DNA of 48,822 nucleotides from assembly GCF_000336385.2 (NCBI RefSeq), contig NZ_HG424587.1, positions 1-48,822 on the forward strand. Direction: 5' to 3'. Below, piece by piece: positions 6,589-23,057 of the stretch. The notes under the pieces were generated by a model. That model did not search any database and was not told where the DNA came from. It was given only the letters and a program-made list of their open reading frames with translations. Each line of letters begins with the position of its first letter. Position 1 is the first letter of the stretch. Source of the stretch: Lysobacter antibioticus HS124. Its GTDB lineage: Bacteria; Pseudomonadota; Gammaproteobacteria; Xanthomonadales; Xanthomonadaceae. A program made the position numbers and the translations under genes.

Positions 6589-6811
6589 AGCAGACGTTTC
6601 CTGCAGACGAGAGTGAGAAAACCCAGCGCGACAACACGCAGCACAAATCGAACCTCCGCCCGGACAATCAAAACGGTGGACGCAGGGTTCGCTTCCTCTG
6701 CAGAAATGTTGACCGCACTCTCTTCGCCGATGACATCCACATTCCCGATGACATCGCTGGCGTCCTGCTCCCTGCAACCCGGTTCGCTCTCGGCGGGCCG
6801 GGTTTTTGTTT
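6589..6811 (+). ncRNA. Candidate small RNA or attenuated leader upstream of the histone-like gene
   Basis: A consensus promoter at 6554-6582 and an intrinsic terminator at 6776-6811 bracket a segment of about 220 nt with no convincing gene; a short frame from GTG 6613 has no family features. Inside it the 11-mer CCGATGACATC occurs twice, at 6727-6737 and 6745-6755, spaced 18 bp start to start. This could be a free small RNA with a duplicated seed, or the leader of the histone-like gene at 7041 with an early terminator. Transcription is inferred from signals only, and the ends are approximate. Confidence 0.45.
6776..6811 (+). terminator. Terminator-like hairpin in the leader region
   Basis: AACCCGG (6776-6782) pairs with CCGGGTT (6798-6804), with extra internal CGC/GCG pairing, and a T-rich tail TTTTTGTTT follows. 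It could end the upstream small transcript or act as an attenuator for the gene at 7041. Confidence 0.6.
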
Positions 6812-7040
6812 GGCCGCCCCGTCTGGCGGCCGCTTTCGTCCGCCGTCCCGGCGCACGCGCCATCGCTCCCGCCGCACCCGCGGCCGGACGCGATCCCCGA
6901 TCCGTTCCGGCGCGCATCGCGCGTCGGCGGCTGCACGCGGGTCCGACTCCCGCGGCTCTGTCTTCACAGAGTCCCTTTCCACTGGGCCTAACGCACTACC
7001 ACTGATCAATCCCTGATCACCACTGACGAGGAGCCATCCC

Positions 7041-7433
7041 ATGGCCGTTAAGAAAGCCGCTAAGAAGTCCGCCGCCAAGAAAGCGACGAAGAAGGTCGCC
7101 AAGAAGGCTGGCGCGAAGAAGGTCGCCAAGAAGGCCACCAAGAAGACCGCCAAGAAGGCCGCCAAGAAGGCCGTGAAGAAGACCGTCCGCAAGGCCGCCG
7201 CCAAGAAGACCGCCAAGAAGGCCGCCAAGAAGACGGCCAAGAAGGCTGCCAAGAAGACCGCCAAGAAGGCGGCTAAGAAGGCGACCAAGAAGACCGCCAA
7301 GAAGACCGCCAAGAAGGCCGCCAAGAAGACGGCTAAGAAGGCCGCCAAGAAGGCCCCGAAGAAGGCCGCCAAGCGCGCCCGCAAGGCGAAGTCTTCGGCT
7401 GCTCTGCCGGCCACCCCGGCGCCGCTGATCTAA
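7041..7433 (+). CDS. Histone H1-like, lysine/alanine-repeat DNA-binding protein
   Basis: The 130-residue protein is almost entirely Lys, Ala and Thr in degenerate repeats (KKAAKK, KKTAKK, KKATKK) from residue 4 to about 115, with no acidic residue. It ends in a short neutral tail (SSAALPATPAPLI). This composition matches bacterial histone H1-like/AlgP-type C-terminal domains, which bind DNA without sequence specificity and may act in nucleoid structure or as a regulator. A strong ribosome binding site (GAGGAG, 7028-7033) sets the start, and a strong terminator follows, so it is a single-gene unit with an unusually long upstream region. The coding DNA is a near-tandem repeat of GCCAAGAAG units, so length variation between strains is expected. 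The precise cellular role is not known. Confidence 0.9.
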   Translation: MAVKKAAKKSAAKKATKKVAKKAGAKKVAKKATKKTAKKAAKKAVKKTVRKAAAKKTAKKAAKKTAKKAAKKTAKKAAKKATKKTAKKTAKKAAKKTAKKAAKKAPKKAAKRARKAKSSAALPATPAPLI

Positions 7434-10224: not shown

Positions 10225-11817
10225 TTACAGGCGCCCGCGGATCAGGTCGGAGGCGCGCTCGGCGATCATCATCGTCGGCGCGTTGGTGTTGCCGCCGATC
10301 AGGCTGGGCATCACCGAAGCGTCGATCACCCGCAGGCCCTCCACGCCGCGCACGCGCAGCTGCGGATCGACCACGGCCGCGTCGTCGCGGCCCATGCGGC
10401 AGGTGCCGACCGGGTGATACACGGTTTCGGCCTTGGCGCGCACGAACTCGACCAACTCGGCGTCGCTGAGGTCGCTGCGCTTGGGAAAGATCGGCGCGCC
10501 GCGGTAGGGATCGAAGGCCTTCTGTGCGAACAGCTCGCGCGAGAGCTTGGCGCATTCGACCATCATCTTCAGGTCGAAGCCTTCCGGGTCGCTGAGGTAG
10601 TTGGCCTGGATGCGCGGTTTGTCGCCGGCGCTGGCGCTGGCCAGCGAGATCGCGCCGCGGCTGCGCGGACGCAGGAAGCAGGCGTGGGCGGTGTAGCCGT
10701 CGCCGGCGAGGCGGCGGCGGCCGTGGTCGTCGAGCATCGCCGGCACGAAATGGAATTGCACGTCGGCGCGCGCGTCCGGCGCCAGCGCCGAGCGCACGAA
10801 ACCGCCGGCCTCGGCGATGTTGCTGCTGCCCGGGCCGCGGTGGCCGCGCAGGTAGTAGTCGAAGGCGATGCGTACGTCGCTGACCCGGTCGTAGGTGATG
10901 CGCTGGGTCGAATGCTGCAGGGTGCAGACGTCGAGATGGTCCTGCAGGTTCTGTCCGACCTGCGGCGCGTCGTGCACGACCTCGATGCCGTGCCGGCGCA
11001 GCTCCGCCGCCGGGCCGATGCCGGACAGCATCAGCAACTGCGGCGAATTGATCGCGCCGCCGCTGAGCAGCACCTCGCGCGCGGCGCGCTGATGGTAGGC
11101 GCGGCCGCCGGCGCTGTAGACCACGCCGGTGGCGCGACCGCGTTCGAAGGTGATGCGGCTGACCAGGGCGCCGGTGACGATGTGCAGGTTGCGCCGCTCG
11201 CGCGCCGGGTCGAGGTAGGCGACCGCGCTGGAGCAGCGCGCGCCGTTCTTCTGGGTGACCTGGTAAAAGCCGAAGCCCTGCTGCTCGGGGCCGTTGAAGT
11301 CCTTGTTGCGCGCATAGCCGGCCTGGACGCCGGCTTCGATGAACACCGACGACAGGGGATTGGTGTAGCGCAGGTCGGAGACGTACAGCGGGCCGAGGCT
11401 GCCGTGCAGGGCATCGTCGCCGCGGCTGTTGCGTTCGCTGCGGCGGAAGAACGGCAGCACCGCGTTCCAGTCCCAGCCGTCGGCGCCGGCCGCGGCCCAG
11501 TCGTCGTAGTCGCCGGGCACGCCGCGGATGTAGCACATGGCGTTGATCGAGCTGGAGCCGCCGAGCACCTTGCCGCGCGGCCACCACAGGCTGCGGCCGT
11601 TCAACTGCGGCTCCGGCGCGGTGTCGTAGCTCCAGTTAACGCCTTTCTTGTCGACCAGTTTGGCCAGGCCAGCGGGCATATGCAGGAACGGATGGCGGTC
11701 GCGCGGGCCGGCCTCGATCAGCAGCACGCGTGTATCGGGGTCTTCGCTGAGCCGGTTGGCGAGCACGCAGCCGGCCGAGCCGGCGCCGATGACGATGTAG
11801 TCGAACTCTTGGGACAC
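10225..11817 (-). CDS. GMC-family FAD-dependent oxidoreductase (choline dehydrogenase-like)
   Basis: The protein (530 residues from GTG 11817) opens directly with the FAD-binding strand [19 protein letters not shown] (GxGxxG at residues 11-16). It carries [14 protein letters not shown], the GMC signature [19 protein letters not shown], and the C-terminal active-site block [10 protein letters not shown] and [20 protein letters not shown]. Length is normal for the family (about 530-560). It oxidises an alcohol at a carbon bearing OH. Although such proteins are often labelled BetA, no betB, betI or transporter lies near, so the substrate is left open. An ATG at 11895 would add 26 residues (MGAFALVLPLTVAARRRARR...) not typical of the family and would put a 12-bp palindrome inside the gene, so I prefer GTG 11817. 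Confidence 0.9.
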
Positions 11818-12101: not shown

Positions 12102-13484
12102 ATGTCGGCAGTCCAAGACGCCAGCCTGCGGCCGGGGCGCGTCCACACCGGAGAATGGACCGCGGTCGCGTTCTCGCTGGGGTATTTCTTCTGCGTGCTG
12201 ACCGCGTACTACGTGATCCGGCCGCTGCGCGACCAACTCAGCGCTGCGGTCGGCTCGACCCAGCTGCCGTGGTTCTACGCCGCGACTCTGATCGCCACCC
12301 TGGCGTTGACCCCGGTGTTCTCCGGCCTGGTCTCGCGCTATCCGCGCCGGATCGTGGTGCCGCTGGTGTACGGCTTCTTCATCGCTTGCCTGCTCGGCTT
12401 CGTGCCGCTGTTCGCCGAGCACGGACCGTTGAGCCCGCGCGCGCTGGGCACGCTGTTCTTCGTCTGGATCAGCGTGTTCAACCTGTTCGTGGTGTCGGTG
12501 TTCTGGAGCTTCATGACCGACATCTGGAACGAGGGCCAGGCGCGGCGGCTGTTCCCGCTGATCGCGGTGGCCGGCACGGTCGGTTCGCTGGCCGGTCCGG
12601 CACTGACCCGGGTGCTGGTCGAGCGCATCGGCGTGGCGCCGCTGCTGCTGGTCTCGGCGGGGCTTCTGGCTTCGTCCTTGCTGTTCGTCGGCCTGCTCGG
12701 GCGCTGGGCGCGGGTGCACGGCGCGCGCCGGCACGAGGCCGCGCACGACGCGGCGATCGGCGGCGGCATGTTCGACGGCCTCAAGCAGGTGTTCGCCAAC
12801 CCGTTCATGCGCTCGATGGCGATCCTGCTGTTGCTCGGCGACTGGATCGGCACGGTCAACTATGGTCTGGTCGTGGACTACTCCAAGGCGACCTTCGTCG
12901 ATGCGGTCGCGCGCACCCGTTTCGCCGCCGACCTGGACCTGATGACCAACCTGCTGGCGCTGGCGACCCAGTTGCTGATCACGCCGTGGCTGCTGGCGCG
13001 ACGCGGCGCGGCGACGGTGATCGGCGCCTGGTCGTTGGTCACGGTCGCGGCGCTGCTGACCGTGGCCCTGGCGGCCGATCCTCACGCGCCGCTGGCGCGG
13101 ACCTTCCCCGCGTTCGGCGCTGCCCTTTCGTGGCTGCCGGAGGCGCTGGCGACGATGCTCGGCTCGATGCCGGCGGTGGCGCTGGCCCTGATCGTCAGCC
13201 GCGGACTGGCCTACGGCATGGCCAACCCGGCGCGCGAAAGCCTGTTCGCCAGCGCCGCGCGCACCCTGCGCTACAAGGGCAAGAATGCGGTCGACACCGC
13301 GGCCTGGCGCTTCGGCGACGTGGCCGTGGCGACCGCGATGGTGGCCTTGCGCAGCGCCGGCGTCGGCGTCGCCGGATTGGCCGGCATCAGCGCCACGGTC
13401 GCCGCCGGCGCCGGCCTGATCGGCTGGAACCTGGCGCGCTGGGTCCAGCGCGGCGCCGCCGCCGAATCCGGGCCGCGCGCATGA
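12102..13484 (+). CDS. TLC/Npt-type nucleotide exchange carrier (MFS superfamily), copy 1
   Basis: This 460-residue polytopic membrane protein has about 12 predicted helices. The N-terminal signature FFCVLTAYYVIRPLRDQLSA (residues about 27-46) and the second-half ANPARESLFASAARTLRYKG resemble the ATP/ADP translocase (TLC, Npt1/Npt2) family, which exchanges nucleotides across membranes in plastids and intracellular bacteria; relatives occur in free-living bacteria with unknown substrates. A loop of about 25 residues with HGARRHEAAHDAAI separates the halves. Start at ATG 12102, because upstream sequence (from 11886) is Arg/Pro-rich and unlike a membrane carrier. Its stop overlaps the metallophosphoesterase start (ATGA). 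A paralogue lies at 14640-15992. The family call is by motif; nucleotide transport itself is inference. Confidence 0.78.
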   Translation: MSAVQDASLRPGRVHTGEWTAVAFSLGYFFCVLTAYYVIRPLRDQLSAAVGSTQLPWFYAATLIATLALTPVFSGLVSRYPRRIVVPLVYGFFIACLLGFVPLFAEHGPLSPRALGTLFFVWISVFNLFVVSVFWSFMTDIWNEGQARRLFPLIAVAGTVGSLAGPALTRVLVERIGVAPLLLVSAGLLASSLLFVGLLGRWARVHGARRHEAAHDAAIGGGMFDGLKQVFANPFMRSMAILLLLGDWIGTVNYGLVVDYSKATFVDAVARTRFAADLDLMTNLLALATQLLITPWLLARRGAATVIGAWSLVTVAALLTVALAADPHAPLARTFPAFGAALSWLPEALATMLGSMPAVALALIVSRGLAYGMANPARESLFASAARTLRYKGKNAVDTAAWRFGDVAVATAMVALRSAGVGVAGLAGISATVAAGAGLIGWNLARWVQRGAAAESGPRA

Positions 13485-14416
13485 ACCGCGGTTGGCGGCC
13501 CTGGCCGCGCCAGCCGTGGCTGCAACGGTTGTTCGTCGGCACGGTGTTGATCGCGGTCGGCTGCCTGAGCTGGGGCTTCTTCTGGGAGCCGCGGCAACTG
13601 GTCGAACGCGGCTACGAGTTGCGCCTGCCGCACTGGAGCCCGCAGTGCGACGGGCTGCGCGTCGACGTGGTCGCCGACATCCACACCGGCTCGCCGCACA
13701 ACGGCCTGGACCGGCTCGACCGGCTGGTGAACCGCCTCATCGCCAGCGACTCGCGCGCAGTGCTGATGGCCGGCGACTACGTGATCCTCAGCGTGCTCGG
13801 CGGCACCTATATCTCCGCCGAGCAGATGGCGCCGCACCTCAAGCCGTTGACCGCGCGCAAGCCGGTCTATGCGGTGCTCGGCAACCACGATTGGTGGAAG
13901 GACGGGCACAGGGTGCGCGCGGCGCTGGAGTCGGCCGGGGTGATCGTGCTGGAGGACCAGGCGCGCGCCACCGAACTCGGCGGCTGCCGCTTGTGGGTGG
14001 TCGGGATCGGCGACAAATGGGAGACCCGCCACGACGTGGTGCGCGCCTTCTCGGGCGTGAGCGACGACGCGCCGGCGCTGGCCCTGACCCACAATCCGGA
14101 CATCTTCCCCGACATTCCGCCGCGCGCCGCCTTGACCCTGGCCGGCCACACTCATGGCGGCCAGGTCAAGCTGCCCTGGATCGGCACGCCGGTGCTGCCG
14201 GCCGAGCAGCGCTATGCCGCCGGCCATCTGATCGAGCGCGGCAAGCATCTGTTCGTCAATACCGGCATCGGTACCAGCATTCTGCCGGTGCGCTTCGGTG
14301 TGCCGCCGGAGATTTCCCGACTGACCTTGCGCGCCGCGTTGCGGTCGCCGCATCCGATCAGCGCTTCCCGCCGCGCCGGGCCCGCGCCGGTCGGCGCCGT
14401 TCCCGGCGCGCGCTGA
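13481..14416 (+). CDS. Membrane-anchored calcineurin-like metallophosphoesterase
   Basis: The ATG overlaps the upstream carrier's stop by 4 bp, giving translational coupling. The 311-residue protein has an N-terminal membrane segment (about 15-35, LQRLFVGTVLIAVGCLSWGF), so the catalytic domain probably faces the periplasm. All blocks of the family are present: D66-I-H68, G98-D99, G134-N-H-D137, H204 and G222-H-T-H-G-G227, the ligands for a two-metal centre. This matches the YkuE/YaeI type, some of which act on lipid-linked or nucleotide phosphoesters. Being coupled to a nucleotide-type carrier, it may process the carrier's substrate; that is inference. The last 30 residues (SRRAGPAPVGAVPGAR) are low complexity. 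Confidence 0.9.
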   Translation: MNRGWRPWPRQPWLQRLFVGTVLIAVGCLSWGFFWEPRQLVERGYELRLPHWSPQCDGLRVDVVADIHTGSPHNGLDRLDRLVNRLIASDSRAVLMAGDYVILSVLGGTYISAEQMAPHLKPLTARKPVYAVLGNHDWWKDGHRVRAALESAGVIVLEDQARATELGGCRLWVVGIGDKWETRHDVVRAFSGVSDDAPALALTHNPDIFPDIPPRAALTLAGHTHGGQVKLPWIGTPVLPAEQRYAAGHLIERGKHLFVNTGIGTSILPVRFGVPPEISRLTLRAALRSPHPISASRRAGPAPVGAVPGAR

Positions 14417-14419
14417 CGC

Positions 14420-14447
14420 TCGGTCCGGCGGCGGCGGCGTTGCGCCG
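14420..14447 (+). other. GC-rich hairpin after the metallophosphoesterase
   Basis: GTCCGGCG (14420-14427) pairs with CGCCGGAC (14440-14447). It lies right after the stop codon in a 223-bp gap before the second carrier gene. No T tract; it may pause or stabilise the message rather than terminate it. Confidence 0.35.
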
Positions 14448-14639
14448 GACAAAGCGTGGCGGCGGTCGCGCCCCCGTGCCGAAGGTCGGGATGACCATCC
14501 GCAGATGGCCGTCCGCGATGCCGGCGCTAGCGTGAGCGAAGGGTAACGGGAGGACCGGAATGCGCGAGGCCGCGGCGCCGCGCGCGTGCGCGGCTGCGCA
14601 CGTCGCCGGCGGGAATTCGCCATCGCAGGATGCGTTCGC

Positions 14640-15992
14640 ATGAGCGTGTCCGCGCGACTGCGCGAGGCCTCCGCCTCGCCGTTGTGGTGGGCGCTGTTGT
14701 ACTTCTTCTGCCTGCTCTGCGGGTACTACGTGCTGCGGCCGGTGCGCGACGCGATGGGCGCGTCGGCGGACGCGACGGCGGTGTTTCCCGCGGCCTGGAT
14801 CGACTGGGCGCAGGCGCACGGGTGGGCGCTGAAGGACTTCGTGCTGCAGGTTTTGTTCACCTGCACCTTCGCCGTCATGCTGCTGTTGCAGCCGGTCTAC
14901 GGCGCCTTGGTGGCGCGTTTCCCGCGGCGGGTGTTCCTGCCGCTGGTGTATCTGTTCTTCATCGTCTGCCTGCTCGGTTTCCACTGGGCGTTCCAAACCC
15001 AGGCGTCCGGACGCGGCATGCTGTTCTTCGTCTGGATCGCGGTGTTCAACCTGTTCGCGGTGACCGTGTTCTGGAGCTACATGGCCGATGTGTTCGACGA
15101 GCATCAGGCGCGGCGGCTGTACGGCTATATCGGCGCCGGCGGCACCGCCGGCGCGGTGCTGGGACCGTTGCTGACCCAGGCCCTGGTCGGGGTCATCGGC
15201 GTGGCCCATCTGCTGTTGGTATCAGCGGCGCTGCTGTCGGTGTGCGTGTTGTGCATCGTGCGCCTGCGCGGCTGGGCGATCCGGCGCGAGCGCCGGCACG
15301 GCCTGGCCAGCGGCGAAGCGGCGATGGGCGGCTCGGTCTGGGCCGGCCTGCGCCTGGTCTGGCAGCGGCCGCTGTTGCGGGCGATGGCGATCACCCTGTT
15401 CTTCAGCGTCGGCGCGGCGACCCTGCTGTACAACCAGCAGGCCGCGATCGCGCGCGAGTTCTATCCCGATCCGGCTGCGGCGACCGCGTACTTCGCCCGC
15501 ATCGACAGCGCGGTCAACCTGCTGGCGATCCTGACCCAACTGCTGCTCACGCGCTGGCTGCTCGGTCGTTTCGGGCCGGCGCCGGCCTTGCTGATGCCGG
15601 CGCTGGTGTTGCTGCTCGGCTTCGGCCTGCTGCTGGCCTCGCCGTTGCCGGTAATGGTCGCCATCGTGCAGGTGGCGCAGCGGGCCGGCGAGTTCGCCCT
15701 GGCCAAGCCGGCGCGCGAGACCTTGTACACCCGGGTCGACCGGCCCTCCCGCTACCAGGGCAAGGCGGTGATCGACACCGCGGTGTTCCGCGGCACCGAC
15801 CTGGCTTTCGTCTGGATCCACAAGGCGGTGGCCGCGGCCGGCACCGCCACGGTGTTCGCCACCGGCGCGATCGCCGCGGCCGGCATGCTCGGCGGCGTCT
15901 GCGCGATCCTGCGCGCACGCCGCGGTCTCGGCGAGGCGGCCTCCGTCTCGGCCCTGCCTACTTCCGCCCAACCTTTGCGAGGTGAGACATGA
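14640..15992 (+). CDS. TLC/Npt-type nucleotide exchange carrier (MFS superfamily), copy 2
   Basis: This 450-residue protein is a paralogue of the carrier at 12102-13484: it shares YYVLRPVRDAMGAS near the N-terminus, FFVWIAVFNLFAVTVFWSYM in the middle and KPARETLYTRVDRPSRYQGK in the second half. About 12 helices are predicted. Start at ATG 14640 gives MSVSARLREASASPLWWALL, preceded by AGGA; a GTG at 14586 would add 18 Arg-rich residues and is less likely. The stop overlaps the next ATG (ATGA, 15989-15992). Having two divergent carriers separated by a phosphoesterase suggests that each copy handles a different substrate or direction, which is inference. An alternative label is simply MFS transporter. 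Confidence 0.78.
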   Translation: MSVSARLREASASPLWWALLYFFCLLCGYYVLRPVRDAMGASADATAVFPAAWIDWAQAHGWALKDFVLQVLFTCTFAVMLLLQPVYGALVARFPRRVFLPLVYLFFIVCLLGFHWAFQTQASGRGMLFFVWIAVFNLFAVTVFWSYMADVFDEHQARRLYGYIGAGGTAGAVLGPLLTQALVGVIGVAHLLLVSAALLSVCVLCIVRLRGWAIRRERRHGLASGEAAMGGSVWAGLRLVWQRPLLRAMAITLFFSVGAATLLYNQQAAIAREFYPDPAAATAYFARIDSAVNLLAILTQLLLTRWLLGRFGPAPALLMPALVLLLGFGLLLASPLPVMVAIVQVAQRAGEFALAKPARETLYTRVDRPSRYQGKAVIDTAVFRGTDLAFVWIHKAVAAAGTATVFATGAIAAAGMLGGVCAILRARRGLGEAASVSALPTSAQPLRGET

Positions 15993-17113
15993 CTACCCGC
16001 CGCCGCGATTTTCTCGCCGCTGGCGCGGCCGCCGCCGGCCTGCTGGCGTTGCCGGCTTATGCGCGCGCCGCGATCAAGGCCAAGACCCAACCGCTGAGCT
16101 TGCTGGTGCTCGGCGGCACCGGTTTCCTCGGCCCGCATTTCGTCGAGGCGGCGCGCCGTCGCGGCCACAAGCTGACCTTGTTCAATCGCGGCAAGACCGC
16201 GCCGGAGAAATTCGCCGGCGAAGAGTTCAGCGACATCGAACAACTGCACGGCGACCGCAAGACCGACATGAAGGCGCTGGAGGGCGAGCGCCGCTGGGAT
16301 GCGGTGTTGGACACATCGGCCTACCTGCCGGCCGACGTGACCCGCTCGGCCGGCCTGCTGGCGCCGCGCATCGGCCAGTATCTGCTGGTGTCGACGATCT
16401 CGGTCTACGCGCGCAACGACCTGCCGGCGGACGAGAACTCGCCCTTGGCCCAGCTCGCCGATCCGAACGTGAGCGAGGTGACCGGCGAGACCTACGGCGG
16501 GCTCAAGGCGCTGTGCGAAGCGGCGGCCGAACGCGAGGCGCCGGGGCGCACCACCATCGTCCGTCCTGGCCTGATCGTCGGCCCGGGCGACCGCACCGAT
16601 CGGTTTACTTACTGGCCGGCGCGCGCCGACCGCGGTGGCGAGATCCTCGCGCCCGGCAGCGCCGAGGACCCGACCCAGTTCATCGATGTGCGCGACCTGG
16701 CCGAGTTCCTGTTGACCATGATCGAGCGCCGTCGCTTCGGCATCTACAACGCCGACGCCGCACCGGGCGCGTTGACCATGGGCGCGGTGTTGGACGAGTC
16801 GCGGCGCGCGGCCGGGGCCAAGTCGAGCCTGACCTGGGTGCCGGCGGATTTCCTCGAAGCGCAGAAGGTCTCGCCGTGGCAGGACATGCCGGCGTGGATT
16901 CCGGCGCGCGGCGAATACGCCGGCTTCGGCCGCACCTCGGTGGCCAAGGCCCAGGCCGCCGGCTTGCGTCATCGACCTTTGCGCGACACCGTCCGCGATA
17001 CGTTGGCCTACTGGCGGCAATTGCCGGCCGAGCGCCGCGCCCAGCCCAAGGCGGGCATCGCGCCCGAGCGCGAGGCCGAGGTGCTCAAGGCCTGGCATGC
17101 CCGGACGACGTAG
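15989..17113 (+). CDS. Tat-exported NAD(P)-fold epimerase/dehydratase-like protein
   Basis: The ATG overlaps the stop of the second carrier by 4 bp. The 374-residue product starts with a twin-arginine signal (TTRRRDFLAAGAAAAGLLAL, cleavage near AYARA). The Rossmann start LSLLVLGGTGFLGPHFVEAA with GxxGxxG follows at about residues 40-46. Further blocks are LDTSAYLPADVTRSAGLLA, VRPGLIVGPGDRTDRFTYWP and FIDVRDLAEFLLTMIE, as in extended SDRs of the epimerase type. The usual YxxxK is modified: the position reads TYGGLKALCE, so Tyr and Lys are kept as Y-x3-K. A Tat signal implies that it folds with its cofactor in the cytoplasm and works in the periplasm, which is rare for this fold. The substrate is unknown. 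Confidence 0.87.
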   Translation: MTTRRRDFLAAGAAAAGLLALPAYARAAIKAKTQPLSLLVLGGTGFLGPHFVEAARRRGHKLTLFNRGKTAPEKFAGEEFSDIEQLHGDRKTDMKALEGERRWDAVLDTSAYLPADVTRSAGLLAPRIGQYLLVSTISVYARNDLPADENSPLAQLADPNVSEVTGETYGGLKALCEAAAEREAPGRTTIVRPGLIVGPGDRTDRFTYWPARADRGGEILAPGSAEDPTQFIDVRDLAEFLLTMIERRRFGIYNADAAPGALTMGAVLDESRRAAGAKSSLTWVPADFLEAQKVSPWQDMPAWIPARGEYAGFGRTSVAKAQAAGLRHRPLRDTVRDTLAYWRQLPAERRAQPKAGIAPEREAEVLKAWHARTT

Positions 17114-20570: not shown

Positions 20571-23057
20571 TTACGCCGCCGCGCGGGTATCGCCGTGATG
20601 GCCGCCGTCGTCGGCGTAGGGCTTGTAGCCCGCCGAGCGCAGTTCCGCGGCGTCGAAGTCGTCGACGCTGATGGTGTCGATGGTCATCTCGCGCAGTTCT
20701 TCCAGCTGTTTGCGCTCCTCGGCGGTGATCCAGCCTTCGCGCACGCCTTCGTCGAGCTGGCTGGCGAAGTCCAGCGCCTGGATGTCGCTGTTCTTCAGCG
20801 CCTTGAGGAACTTGCGCTCGACCGGCTCGGCCAGGATCACCTTCTGCAGGTAGCTGTTGATGCGGCCGGCCGGGTTGTTCGCGCAGGGGGTGGTGAACAC
20901 GCCCTCGGCGAGGCGGTCGCGGGCGTCGTTGGGCGACATCAGCAGCGACGCGGCGCGGTGGCCGAGGCGGTCGCTCGGCGCCTGGGCGCGGCGGCCCCAG
21001 GGGAAGATCAGCGCCCACAGCAGCCAGCCGACCGGACGGATCGGGAAGTTGCGCAGCGCGCCGGACAGGGCCAGTTCGATCTTGTGCACGGCATCGTGGA
21101 AGGCCCAGGCCAACAGCGGCTGGTCGCCGGCCGGACGGCCCTGGTCCTCGTAGCGCTTGAGCATGCTGCTGGCGATGTACAACTGGCTCAGCACGTCGCC
21201 CAGGCGGCCCGACAGCGACTCCTTGAACTTCAGCTTGCCGCCGAGCAGCAGCATCGAGGTATCGGCCATCAGCGCCAGAGTCGCCGAGTAGCGGTTGAGC
21301 TTGCGGTAGTAGCGGCGGGTGTAGGTGTCGCCCGGGGCGGCACCGAGCTTGGCGCCGGTGATGCCGAACCACCAGCTGCGCACCGCGTTGGAGATCGCGA
21401 AGCCGATGTGGCCGAACAGGTTCTGGTCGAACTCGCGCAGCGCCTGCGCCTTGTCCGGCAGCATCGCCGCCTTCATTTCCTTGAGCACCCACGGGTGGCA
21501 CAGGATCGCGCCCTGGCCGAAGATCATCAGCGAGCGGGTCATGATGTTGGCGCCTTCGACCGTGATCATGATCGGCAGCGCCTGCCAGTTGCGGCCGGCG
21601 TAGTTCTTCGGACCGAGGATGATGCCCTTGCCGCCGTGGATGTCCATCACGTCGGTGGCGACTTCGCGCGCCATCTCGGTGCAGTGGTACTTGGCGATGG
21701 TCGAGGGCACGGCCGGGTTTTCGCCGCGTGCGACCGCGGCCGCGGTGGCCTGCGACAGCGCGCTGATCGCATAGGCCTTACCGGCGATGCGGGCCAGCGC
21801 TTCCTCGACGCCTTCGAAGCGGCCGACCGACAGGCCGAACTGCTTGCGGATGCGGGCGTAGGCGCCGGTCACGACCGCGCCCATCTTGGCGCCGCCGCTG
21901 CCGGAGGAGGGCAGGGTGATCGAGCGGCCGATCGACAGGCATTCGACCAGCATCTGCCAGCCCTTGCCGGCATAGGCTTCGCCGCCGATCAGCTGGCTCA
22001 GCGGGATGAACACTTCCTTGCCGTGAATCGGACCGTTCTGGAAGGTGCAGTTGAGCGGGAAGTGGCGACGGCCGACTTCGACCCCGGCGGTGTCGCGCGG
22101 CAGCAGGGCCAGGGTGATGCCGATGTCGCGCTTGTCGCCGATCAGGCCGTCCGGGTCGTACATGCGGAAGGCCAGGCCGATCAGGGTCGCGACCGGGGCC
22201 AGGGTGATGTAGCGCTTATCGAAGGTGAGCTTGACGCCGACCACGCGGGCGCCGTTCCAGTCGCCCATGGTGACGATGCCGTAGTCTGGAATCGAGGTCG
22301 CGTCGGAACCGGCCCAGGGGCCGGTCAGGCCGAAGCAGGGCACTTCGCGGCCGTCGGCCAGGCGCGGCAGGTAATGCTCCTTCTGCTCCTTGGTGCCGTA
22401 GTGCATCAGCAGCTCGGCCGGGCCCAGCGAGTTGGGCACGCCGACGGTGGAGCTGACCACGCTCGACACCGAAGCCAGCTTCTGGATCACCTTGTGGTTG
22501 GCCAGCGCCGAGAAGCCCAGGCCGCCGTATTCCTTCGGGATGTTGAGGCCGAAGAACTTGTTCTTCTTGACGAAGTCCCACAGCGCCGGCGACAGGTCCG
22601 CATCGATGTGCGTGATCTGCCAGTCGTTGGTCATCTTGCACAGCTCTTCGGTCGGGCCGTCGAGGAAGGCCTGCTCCTCGGCGGTCAGCTCCGGCTTGGG
22701 CTGCGACAGCAACTGCTGCCAGTCCGGCTTGCCCGAGAACAGCTCGCCTTCGAAGCCGACCGTGCCGGCCTCCAGCGCGGTGCGCTCGGTTTCCGACAGC
22801 GGCGGCAGGATCTTGGTGTAGAAGCCGAGCAGCGGCTTGGTGATCAGCGGCAGGCGGATCTGCGGGATCAGCAGCGGCACCGCGATCAGCGCGACCAGCA
22901 CCGCGGCGACGACGGTCGCGGTCGGATTGGCGCCGAGCAGGTAACAGCCGACCAGCACGGTGGCGGTCAACGCGGCCCAGACCGGCAGACGGAGGCGGTG
23001 GTAGGCGGCGATGGCGCCGACGAGAAGGAAGGCAAGGAAGGGGATCGCGATACTCAT
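20571..23057 (-). CDS. fadE: Acyl-CoA dehydrogenase, FadE type
   Basis: FadE catalyses the first step of beta-oxidation, FAD-dependent 2,3-dehydrogenation of acyl-CoA. The product is 828 residues, matching the long FadE class (E. coli about 814). The N-terminal 70 residues hold two or three membrane segments (IAIPFLAFLLVGAIAAYHRL, VWAALTATVLVGCYLL, VVAAVLVALIAVPLLI). The dehydrogenase core has CFGLTGPWAGSDATSIPD, LPSSGSGGAKMGAVVTGAYA, and the catalytic-base block MITVEGANIMTRSLMIFGQG, as in FadE. A C-terminal domain of about 280 residues follows. Start at ATG 23057, preceded by GGAGCG; upstream in-frame sequence to 23159 is Arg-rich. The gene is divergent from a TetR regulator, the likely controller. 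Confidence 0.95.
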   Translation of the reverse strand: MSIAIPFLAFLLVGAIAAYHRLRLPVWAALTATVLVGCYLLGANPTATVVAAVLVALIAVPLLIPQIRLPLITKPLLGFYTKILPPLSETERTALEAGTVGFEGELFSGKPDWQQLLSQPKPELTAEEQAFLDGPTEELCKMTNDWQITHIDADLSPALWDFVKKNKFFGLNIPKEYGGLGFSALANHKVIQKLASVSSVVSSTVGVPNSLGPAELLMHYGTKEQKEHYLPRLADGREVPCFGLTGPWAGSDATSIPDYGIVTMGDWNGARVVGVKLTFDKRYITLAPVATLIGLAFRMYDPDGLIGDKRDIGITLALLPRDTAGVEVGRRHFPLNCTFQNGPIHGKEVFIPLSQLIGGEAYAGKGWQMLVECLSIGRSITLPSSGSGGAKMGAVVTGAYARIRKQFGLSVGRFEGVEEALARIAGKAYAISALSQATAAAVARGENPAVPSTIAKYHCTEMAREVATDVMDIHGGKGIILGPKNYAGRNWQALPIMITVEGANIMTRSLMIFGQGAILCHPWVLKEMKAAMLPDKAQALREFDQNLFGHIGFAISNAVRSWWFGITGAKLGAAPGDTYTRRYYRKLNRYSATLALMADTSMLLLGGKLKFKESLSGRLGDVLSQLYIASSMLKRYEDQGRPAGDQPLLAWAFHDAVHKIELALSGALRNFPIRPVGWLLWALIFPWGRRAQAPSDRLGHRAASLLMSPNDARDRLAEGVFTTPCANNPAGRINSYLQKVILAEPVERKFLKALKNSDIQALDFASQLDEGVREGWITAEERKQLEELREMTIDTISVDDFDAAELRSAGYKPYADDGGHHGDTRAAA

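Follow-up and report, generated by a model that had tools for sequence, protein, structure and literature searches.

TLC/NTT-related carriers beside exported enzymes in Lysobacter antibioticus HS124: possible suppliers of a periplasmic cofactor

Two related carriers, a metallophosphoesterase (PDE) and a short-chain dehydrogenase/reductase (SDR) with a twin-arginine (Tat) signal are encoded by four co-directional genes in a 48,822-nucleotide stretch of Lysobacter antibioticus HS124, referred to hereafter as the window (contig 148; host genome 5.14 Mb). The carriers are distant homologues of the TLC/NTT nucleotide transporters, which include the plastid and chlamydial ATP/ADP exchangers, and among their relatives the adjacent gene repeatedly encodes an enzyme that needs NAD(P)H or ATP and carries a predicted export signal. 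From these sequences we put at about even chances the proposal that the carriers provide exported NAD(P)-dependent enzymes with a nucleotide cofactor by moving it across the inner membrane. Carrier 1 (C1) and carrier 2 (C2), from a divergent clade of the major facilitator superfamily (MFS) on the TLC/NTT branch, would exchange a nucleotide cofactor, probably NAD(P)(H), across the inner membrane. NAD(P)-dependent enzymes exported by the Tat or Sec pathway, here the Tat SDR, would thereby work in the periplasm, and the anchored PDE would probably hydrolyse a nucleotide or phosphodiester at the outer face. Export, substrate, direction and coupling are given in this scheme as we infer them.

12102..13484, plus strand: C1, TLC/NTT-like MFS carrier, 460 aa
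13481..14416, plus strand: PDE, 311 aa, hydrophobic N-terminal segment; YaeI/LpxG-like, under the cut-offs of both
14640..15992, plus strand: C2, TLC/NTT-like MFS carrier, 450 aa
15989..17113, plus strand: extended SDR with Tat signal, NAD(P)-binding epimerase/reductase fold, 374 aa
15989..16072, plus strand: predicted twin-arginine signal peptide of the SDR (RRRDFL, h-region, A-x-A); TatC is encoded in the genome

A preliminary description of this DNA had placed four genes in one direction at these coordinates, with ATGA overlaps between C1 and PDE and between C2 and the SDR and with 223 bp between PDE and C2; the layout is as described. C1 and C2 share 39% identity over 407 aligned columns.

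Exported enzymes beside related carriers

The profile of a family alignment of the carriers (A1, 18 members) was searched against 185 genomes sampled from the class and 299 sampled from the phylum, and 60 neighbourhoods were read. From the class sample we took all 23 matches of at least 350 bits outside the own family plus some of lower score. The phylum sample contributed 18 of its 20 matches of at least 350 bits and two weaker ones; one match already in the class set and a partial one in G290 were omitted. An adjacent, co-directional gene for a predicted exported NAD(P)-oxidoreductase was found at 18 of the 23 class-sample carriers of at least 350 bits, in 18 different families. The misses were L141, L181, L183, L185 and L188, and L141 has a gene of the aldo/keto reductase (AKR) type 406 bp away. 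In the phylum sample the count was 16 of 18 (misses L247 and L248), the 18 carriers coming from only 7 families, six from one and five from another. Among the other clades of the own family, such an enzyme, often a Tat-type AKR or Tat SDR, adjoins 14 of 21 carriers; L114 and L115 have no such partner and were counted as misses.

The association falls off sharply with distance. Counted on either strand, predicted exported oxidoreductases made up 55 of 131 genes at one gene from the carrier, 6 of 127 at two, 1 of 121 at three and 2 of 197 at four or more, in a set that includes four C2 loci chosen for their SDR (L128, L129, L131 and L132), three of which add to the 55. Because the profiles behind the oxidoreductase labels had been seeded with neighbours of this kind, the labels were cross-checked with Pfam. 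The 59 adjacent co-directional genes gave 23 Aldo_ket_red, 5 adh_short, 5 F420_oxidored, 3 CotH, 3 Beta-lactamase2 and 1 PPDK_N; among 89 genes three away, PPDK_N occurred in 4 and each oxidoreductase family in at most one. The oxidoreductase partners are AKRs, extended or classical SDRs and F420/NADP-reductase-like proteins. The AKR consensus retains D, Y, K and H, and the L184 protein is degenerate.

Partners are not fixed within the carrier tree, which was built from 120 sequences (thinned from 162) including three canonical NTTs. Within a single subclade the partner is by turns an AKR or a classical SDR, carriers paired with the extended SDR fall in two or more distinct places, and five genomes of a single genus have an F420-type reductase as well as the AKR. 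In a separate part of the tree the partners are CotH or PPDK-like proteins, as seen for 8 of the 21 weaker carriers sampled, and this carrier group may reflect use of ATP in the periplasm. The neighbours in question, CotH kinase-type or PPDK_N/PEP-utilizer proteins, lie at L189, L190, L250, L194, L195, L202, L203 and L249 and mostly have export signals; the called CotH frame of L250 has none, and its label depends on an in-frame upstream extension. Some loci of this group also have beta-lactamase-fold proteins. Tandem carriers occur at L193 (565-4050) and L204 (4473-7923), where one of each pair exceeds 700 aa and is perhaps a fusion of the NTT-HEAT type.

Four classical SDR partners and 4 of 5 PPDK-like proteins have Sec-like N-termini without RR, and should therefore fold outside and bind their cofactor there. 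What the partners have in common is that they need NAD(P)H or ATP and have a predicted export signal. A wider suggestion, which we rate a little short of even chances, is that the TLC-like superfamily may be a general supplier of periplasmic cofactors, with NAD(P)(H) for at least four oxidoreductase families and ATP for CotH-type kinases and PPDK-like enzymes.

The association was also viewed from the side of the enzyme. The exported AKR family gave 40 matches in 34 of the 185 class-sample genomes, and 19 of the 40 lie beside a carrier by coordinates. Carriers of at least 350 bits (24 genomes) and these AKRs (34 genomes) occur together in 20 of the 185 genomes, compared to 4.4 expected (24 x 34 / 185). 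When 20 of the 21 loci with a lone AKR were read, A1 matches were found in 0 of 20 and no single alternative transporter stood out; in this reading the AKR gene of L254 was miscalled. At three of the carrier-less loci (L264, L269 and L270) the exported AKR lies beside a small hydrophobic protein whose N-terminus is similar across the three.

These figures bear on whether the neighbourhood has any functional meaning at all, or is due to chance or an inherited old gene order. The window locus is syntenic across the family, so that order alone is weak evidence there. The enrichment at a distance of one gene in many families, the several unrelated partner families and the co-occurrence with the exported AKR all argue against a neighbourhood devoid of functional meaning, which we consider highly improbable.

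Family placement and charged residues of the carriers

Searches with single sequences alone left the carriers unplaced. C1 scored 18.9 bits against PF03219 (Pfam cut-off 21) and 26.9 bits against TIGR00769 (NCBIfam cut-off 387.2) and had no match to MFS_1 (PF07690) at E<=1. C2 reached 50.8 bits against MFS_1, above the cut-off of 33.4, and had no match to PF03219 or TIGR00769 at E<=1. A PF03219 search of the own genome returned nothing at E<=0.001.

Profile and fold comparisons were more informative. Against the PDB, the A1 profile matched NTT1 of C. pneumoniae (E 1.4e-24) and of Arabidopsis (6.8e-21), the next match being OxlT at 5e-4. An AlphaFold2 model of C1 (pLDDT 88.7) has 12 long helices, and a Foldseek search with it returned five NTT entries at ranks 1-5 of 475 (E 1.3e-10 to 2.2e-7; next 2.4e-6), to which the model is 16-18% identical in the structural alignments. 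With hhalign, the carriers gave 99.1% (E 4e-19, 406 columns) against three canonical NTTs, all from one Chlamydiales genome, and the control of three close MFS sequences, a single narrow MFS set, gave 15.6%. The MFS control search gave 6 matches, spread over 5 of 185 genomes, and does not have the breadth that a control would need. By profile and by fold, the closest match of the carriers was NTT and not another MFS group.

The carriers are homologous to TLC/NTT, and because C1 and C2 miss the Pfam and NCBIfam cut-offs we regard them as a divergent sister clade whose proteins are not members by curated cut-offs. The preliminary description had called both carriers TLC-type. As a statement of homology the call holds at the level of profile and fold; as family membership by curated single-sequence cut-offs it fails, C1 falling narrowly below the PF03219 cut-off and C2 matching PF07690. 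The closest solved relatives by profile and fold are in TLC/NTT (PF03219, TIGR00769; PDB 9j3n and 9j3j, the NTT1 proteins of C. pneumoniae and Arabidopsis), from which the carriers differ in scoring below both curated cut-offs, in having lost acidic positions and in having relatives paired with exported enzymes.

For the residue comparison we assume that K155, E245, E385 and K527 are the critical charged residues of Arabidopsis NTT1 (AtNTT1), in both numbering and role, and the alignment of the carriers with AtNTT1 is distant. Outside the CotH/PPDK group, and at about 17% identity, all 96 rows have R at the K155 position and 91 of the 96 have K at the K527 position, where C2 of the window has Q; compared to AtNTT1, this K stands at the K527 position or two residues beyond. 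An acidic residue occupies the E385 position in 1 of these 96 rows and the E245 position in 0 of the 95 rows shown. In the CotH/PPDK group, E385 is matched by E or D in 20 of 21. The clades paired with oxidoreductases have retained the cationic NTT positions and lost the acidic ones. Because the AtNTT1 numbers are assumed and the alignment is distant, this pattern is only a hint that phosphate-binding charges may have been retained with a different choice of substrate.

Relatives of C1 are also present in Chlamydiales. Two contigs of metagenome-assembled genomes carry them (L077 10001-11275 and L074 227-1465; 48% and 53% identical to C1, respectively, in the best segment), and the L077 genome (1.2-Mb contig) has three canonical NTTs besides its C1-like carrier. 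Transfer between phyla is possible. No clear partner gene was found among the open frames at either locus.

The locus in Lysobacter and across its family

The order of the four genes is kept in 5 of 5 loci of Lysobacter relatives (L031-L035) and is not peculiar to the strain. A single four-gene operon was considered and rejected. Because one or two further called genes separate PDE from C2 in the five Lysobacter relatives, the four genes look more like two pairs than a single operon. A promoter or terminator pattern was looked for in the 223-bp gap and none was found.

Elsewhere in the family the order is mostly reduced to a single carrier of either type. By our own sorting of matches, C1-type carriers occur in 28 and C2-type carriers in 66 of 99 family genomes; 92 have a carrier and 7 have neither. 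Both types occur in only 2 of the 99, the own genome and that of a congener. Two neighbouring genes mark the slot:

10225..11817, minus strand: divergent neighbour, presumably a GMC-type oxidoreductase; marker of the syntenic slot (gene cluster 2)
20571..23057, minus strand: a protein of 828 aa that we take to be FadE-like; second syntenic marker (gene cluster 1)

Among 40 C1 loci, 23 C2 loci and 20 loci of a third clade, gene cluster 1 was present at 33, 23 and 0 and gene cluster 2 at 29, 16 and 0, respectively. Because C1 and C2 loci share these surroundings, both carriers fill the same slot; one slot holds a single carrier of either type, and Lysobacter retains both.

The SDR scored 55.5 bits against PF01370 (Epimerase; cut-off 20.9) and its cofactor and catalytic motifs are intact. 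These include GGTGFLG (GGTGxxG), N-R-G after strand 2, as in NADP-preferring enzymes, and YxxxK. The N-terminus, MTTRRRDFLAA, and the presence of TatC in the genome make it a predicted Tat substrate. Orthologs of at least 67% identity were found in 13 of the 99 genomes, and by coordinates all 13 adjoin a carrier (3 C1-type and 10 C2-type); in G063 the ortholog is in two pieces, about 0.3 kb from the carrier. The count leaves out matches of 52% or less and a 65-residue remnant in G050. This short remnant (G050:C47:6261-6455, L130) has two stops, and its genome has no match to C1 or C2.

The PDE scored 42.1 bits against PF00149 (Metallophos; cut-off 21.5), and all five metallophosphoesterase motifs that we sought, under names that we presume to be the usual ones, are present. 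Judging from its sequence, it looks membrane-anchored with its domain outside. Orthologs with E below 1e-70 were found in 17 of the 99 genomes, and by coordinates 16 of these 17 lie within a carrier set. The ortholog in G002 is without a carrier match and the match in G034 contains five stops; the count excludes six weaker matches, which come from five additional genomes.

There are two other readings of the locus. In the first, the PDE is a lipid or UDP-sugar hydrolase of the LpxG/YaeI kind, the SDR acts on envelope sugars and the carriers move an envelope building block. The epimerase-like SDR would suit such a pathway, as would the matches of the PDE to YaeI (NF008460; 116.3 bits) and LpxG (NF033458; 97.5 bits), both of which are below the equivalog cut-offs of 188 and 350, respectively. 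This reading would leave unexplained why the carrier family also has AKR, F420-type, CotH and PPDK partners, and we regard an envelope role as very unlikely. In the second reading, the carriers import nucleotides or phosphorylated compounds from prey or host, and PDE and SDR process them outside. The TLC/NTT homology, the conserved PDE partner and the carrier relatives in Chlamydiales are consistent with such scavenging. The partners, however, are mainly reductase-type enzymes, and no nucleotidase-type family is among those found at least twice in the 59 adjacent genes; scavenging seems to us a rather unlikely explanation. The idea of the preliminary description, a periplasm-facing pathway that takes up or processes phosphorylated compounds, is supported as to the periplasm, but the neighbourhoods of the relatives favour cofactor supply to exported enzymes over uptake.

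Further upstream in the window, a called open reading frame on the minus strand (6668-7414) is full of AFLAAFLAVF repeats.

Cofactor supply compared with substrate transport and with known systems

Several findings weigh against cofactor supply. At E<=1e-3, MFS_1 matches 17 of the 18 A1 members and TLC only 9 of 18, and two of the four charged AtNTT1 positions that we assume to be critical are not conserved in the carriers. The SDR ortholog of the window is present in only 13 of the 92 carrier-bearing family genomes. In the other clades of the own family, 7 of 21 carriers are without an adjacent exported oxidoreductase; one of them, L100, adjoins an SDR without an export signal and was counted as a miss. 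Export labels throughout were assigned from hydrophobicity and an RR rule, not by SignalP. As 21 of the 40 exported AKRs have no adjacent carrier, dependence of the AKR on the carrier is not universal. Lastly, Tat exports proteins already loaded with cofactor: the glucose-fructose oxidoreductase of Zymomonas is reported to be exported by Tat with NADP already bound (a reference cited in PMC6708511). It resembles the SDR as a Tat-exported NADP-dependent enzyme and differs in that no carrier is implied.

This precedent belongs to the strongest rival, in which the carrier moves an organic substrate or product (for example a carbonyl compound or a sugar), while the enzyme takes up its cofactor before Tat export and holds it firmly thereafter. 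Most of the labelled oxidoreductase partners do bear a Tat label, epimerase-like SDRs can recycle their own cofactor, and one carrier-less exported AKR (L265) adjoins an MFS protein that is of sugar type by sequence label only. Against this, the partners span several unrelated oxidoreductase families and ATP-using proteins, some have Sec-like signals, and they share a cofactor and not a substrate. Because partners change within carrier subclades, we think a common cofactor likelier than a common organic substrate, and consider the transport of an organic compound unlikely, if worth serious attention.

Transport of a cofactor by a protein of this superfamily has a precedent. The PamNTT4-like carrier of Protochlamydia is described as an NTT relative that transports NAD and has uncharacterised bacterial relatives; the likeness to our carriers is by description (PMC5381601). 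On the enzyme side, CerR of Caulobacter, a ceramide reductase of the periplasm, has a conserved NADH site, and the source of its reducing power is stated to be open (PMC11087976). It is an NAD-type reductase in the periplasm, as the SDR would be, with the difference that the substrate of CerR is known. How ATP enters the periplasm is likewise called unknown in another paper (PMC7432876). In the open-licence literature, we found no paper linking TLC-like carriers with exported oxidoreductases.

If the carriers do supply cofactors, this would address both the missing source of NADH for CerR and the route of ATP into the periplasm, and TLC/NTT homologues beside exported cofactor-dependent enzymes are a named candidate for both questions. 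General cofactor supply by these proteins, if true, would mean that redox and phosphoryl metabolism extends beyond the inner membrane in many bacteria of the phylum.

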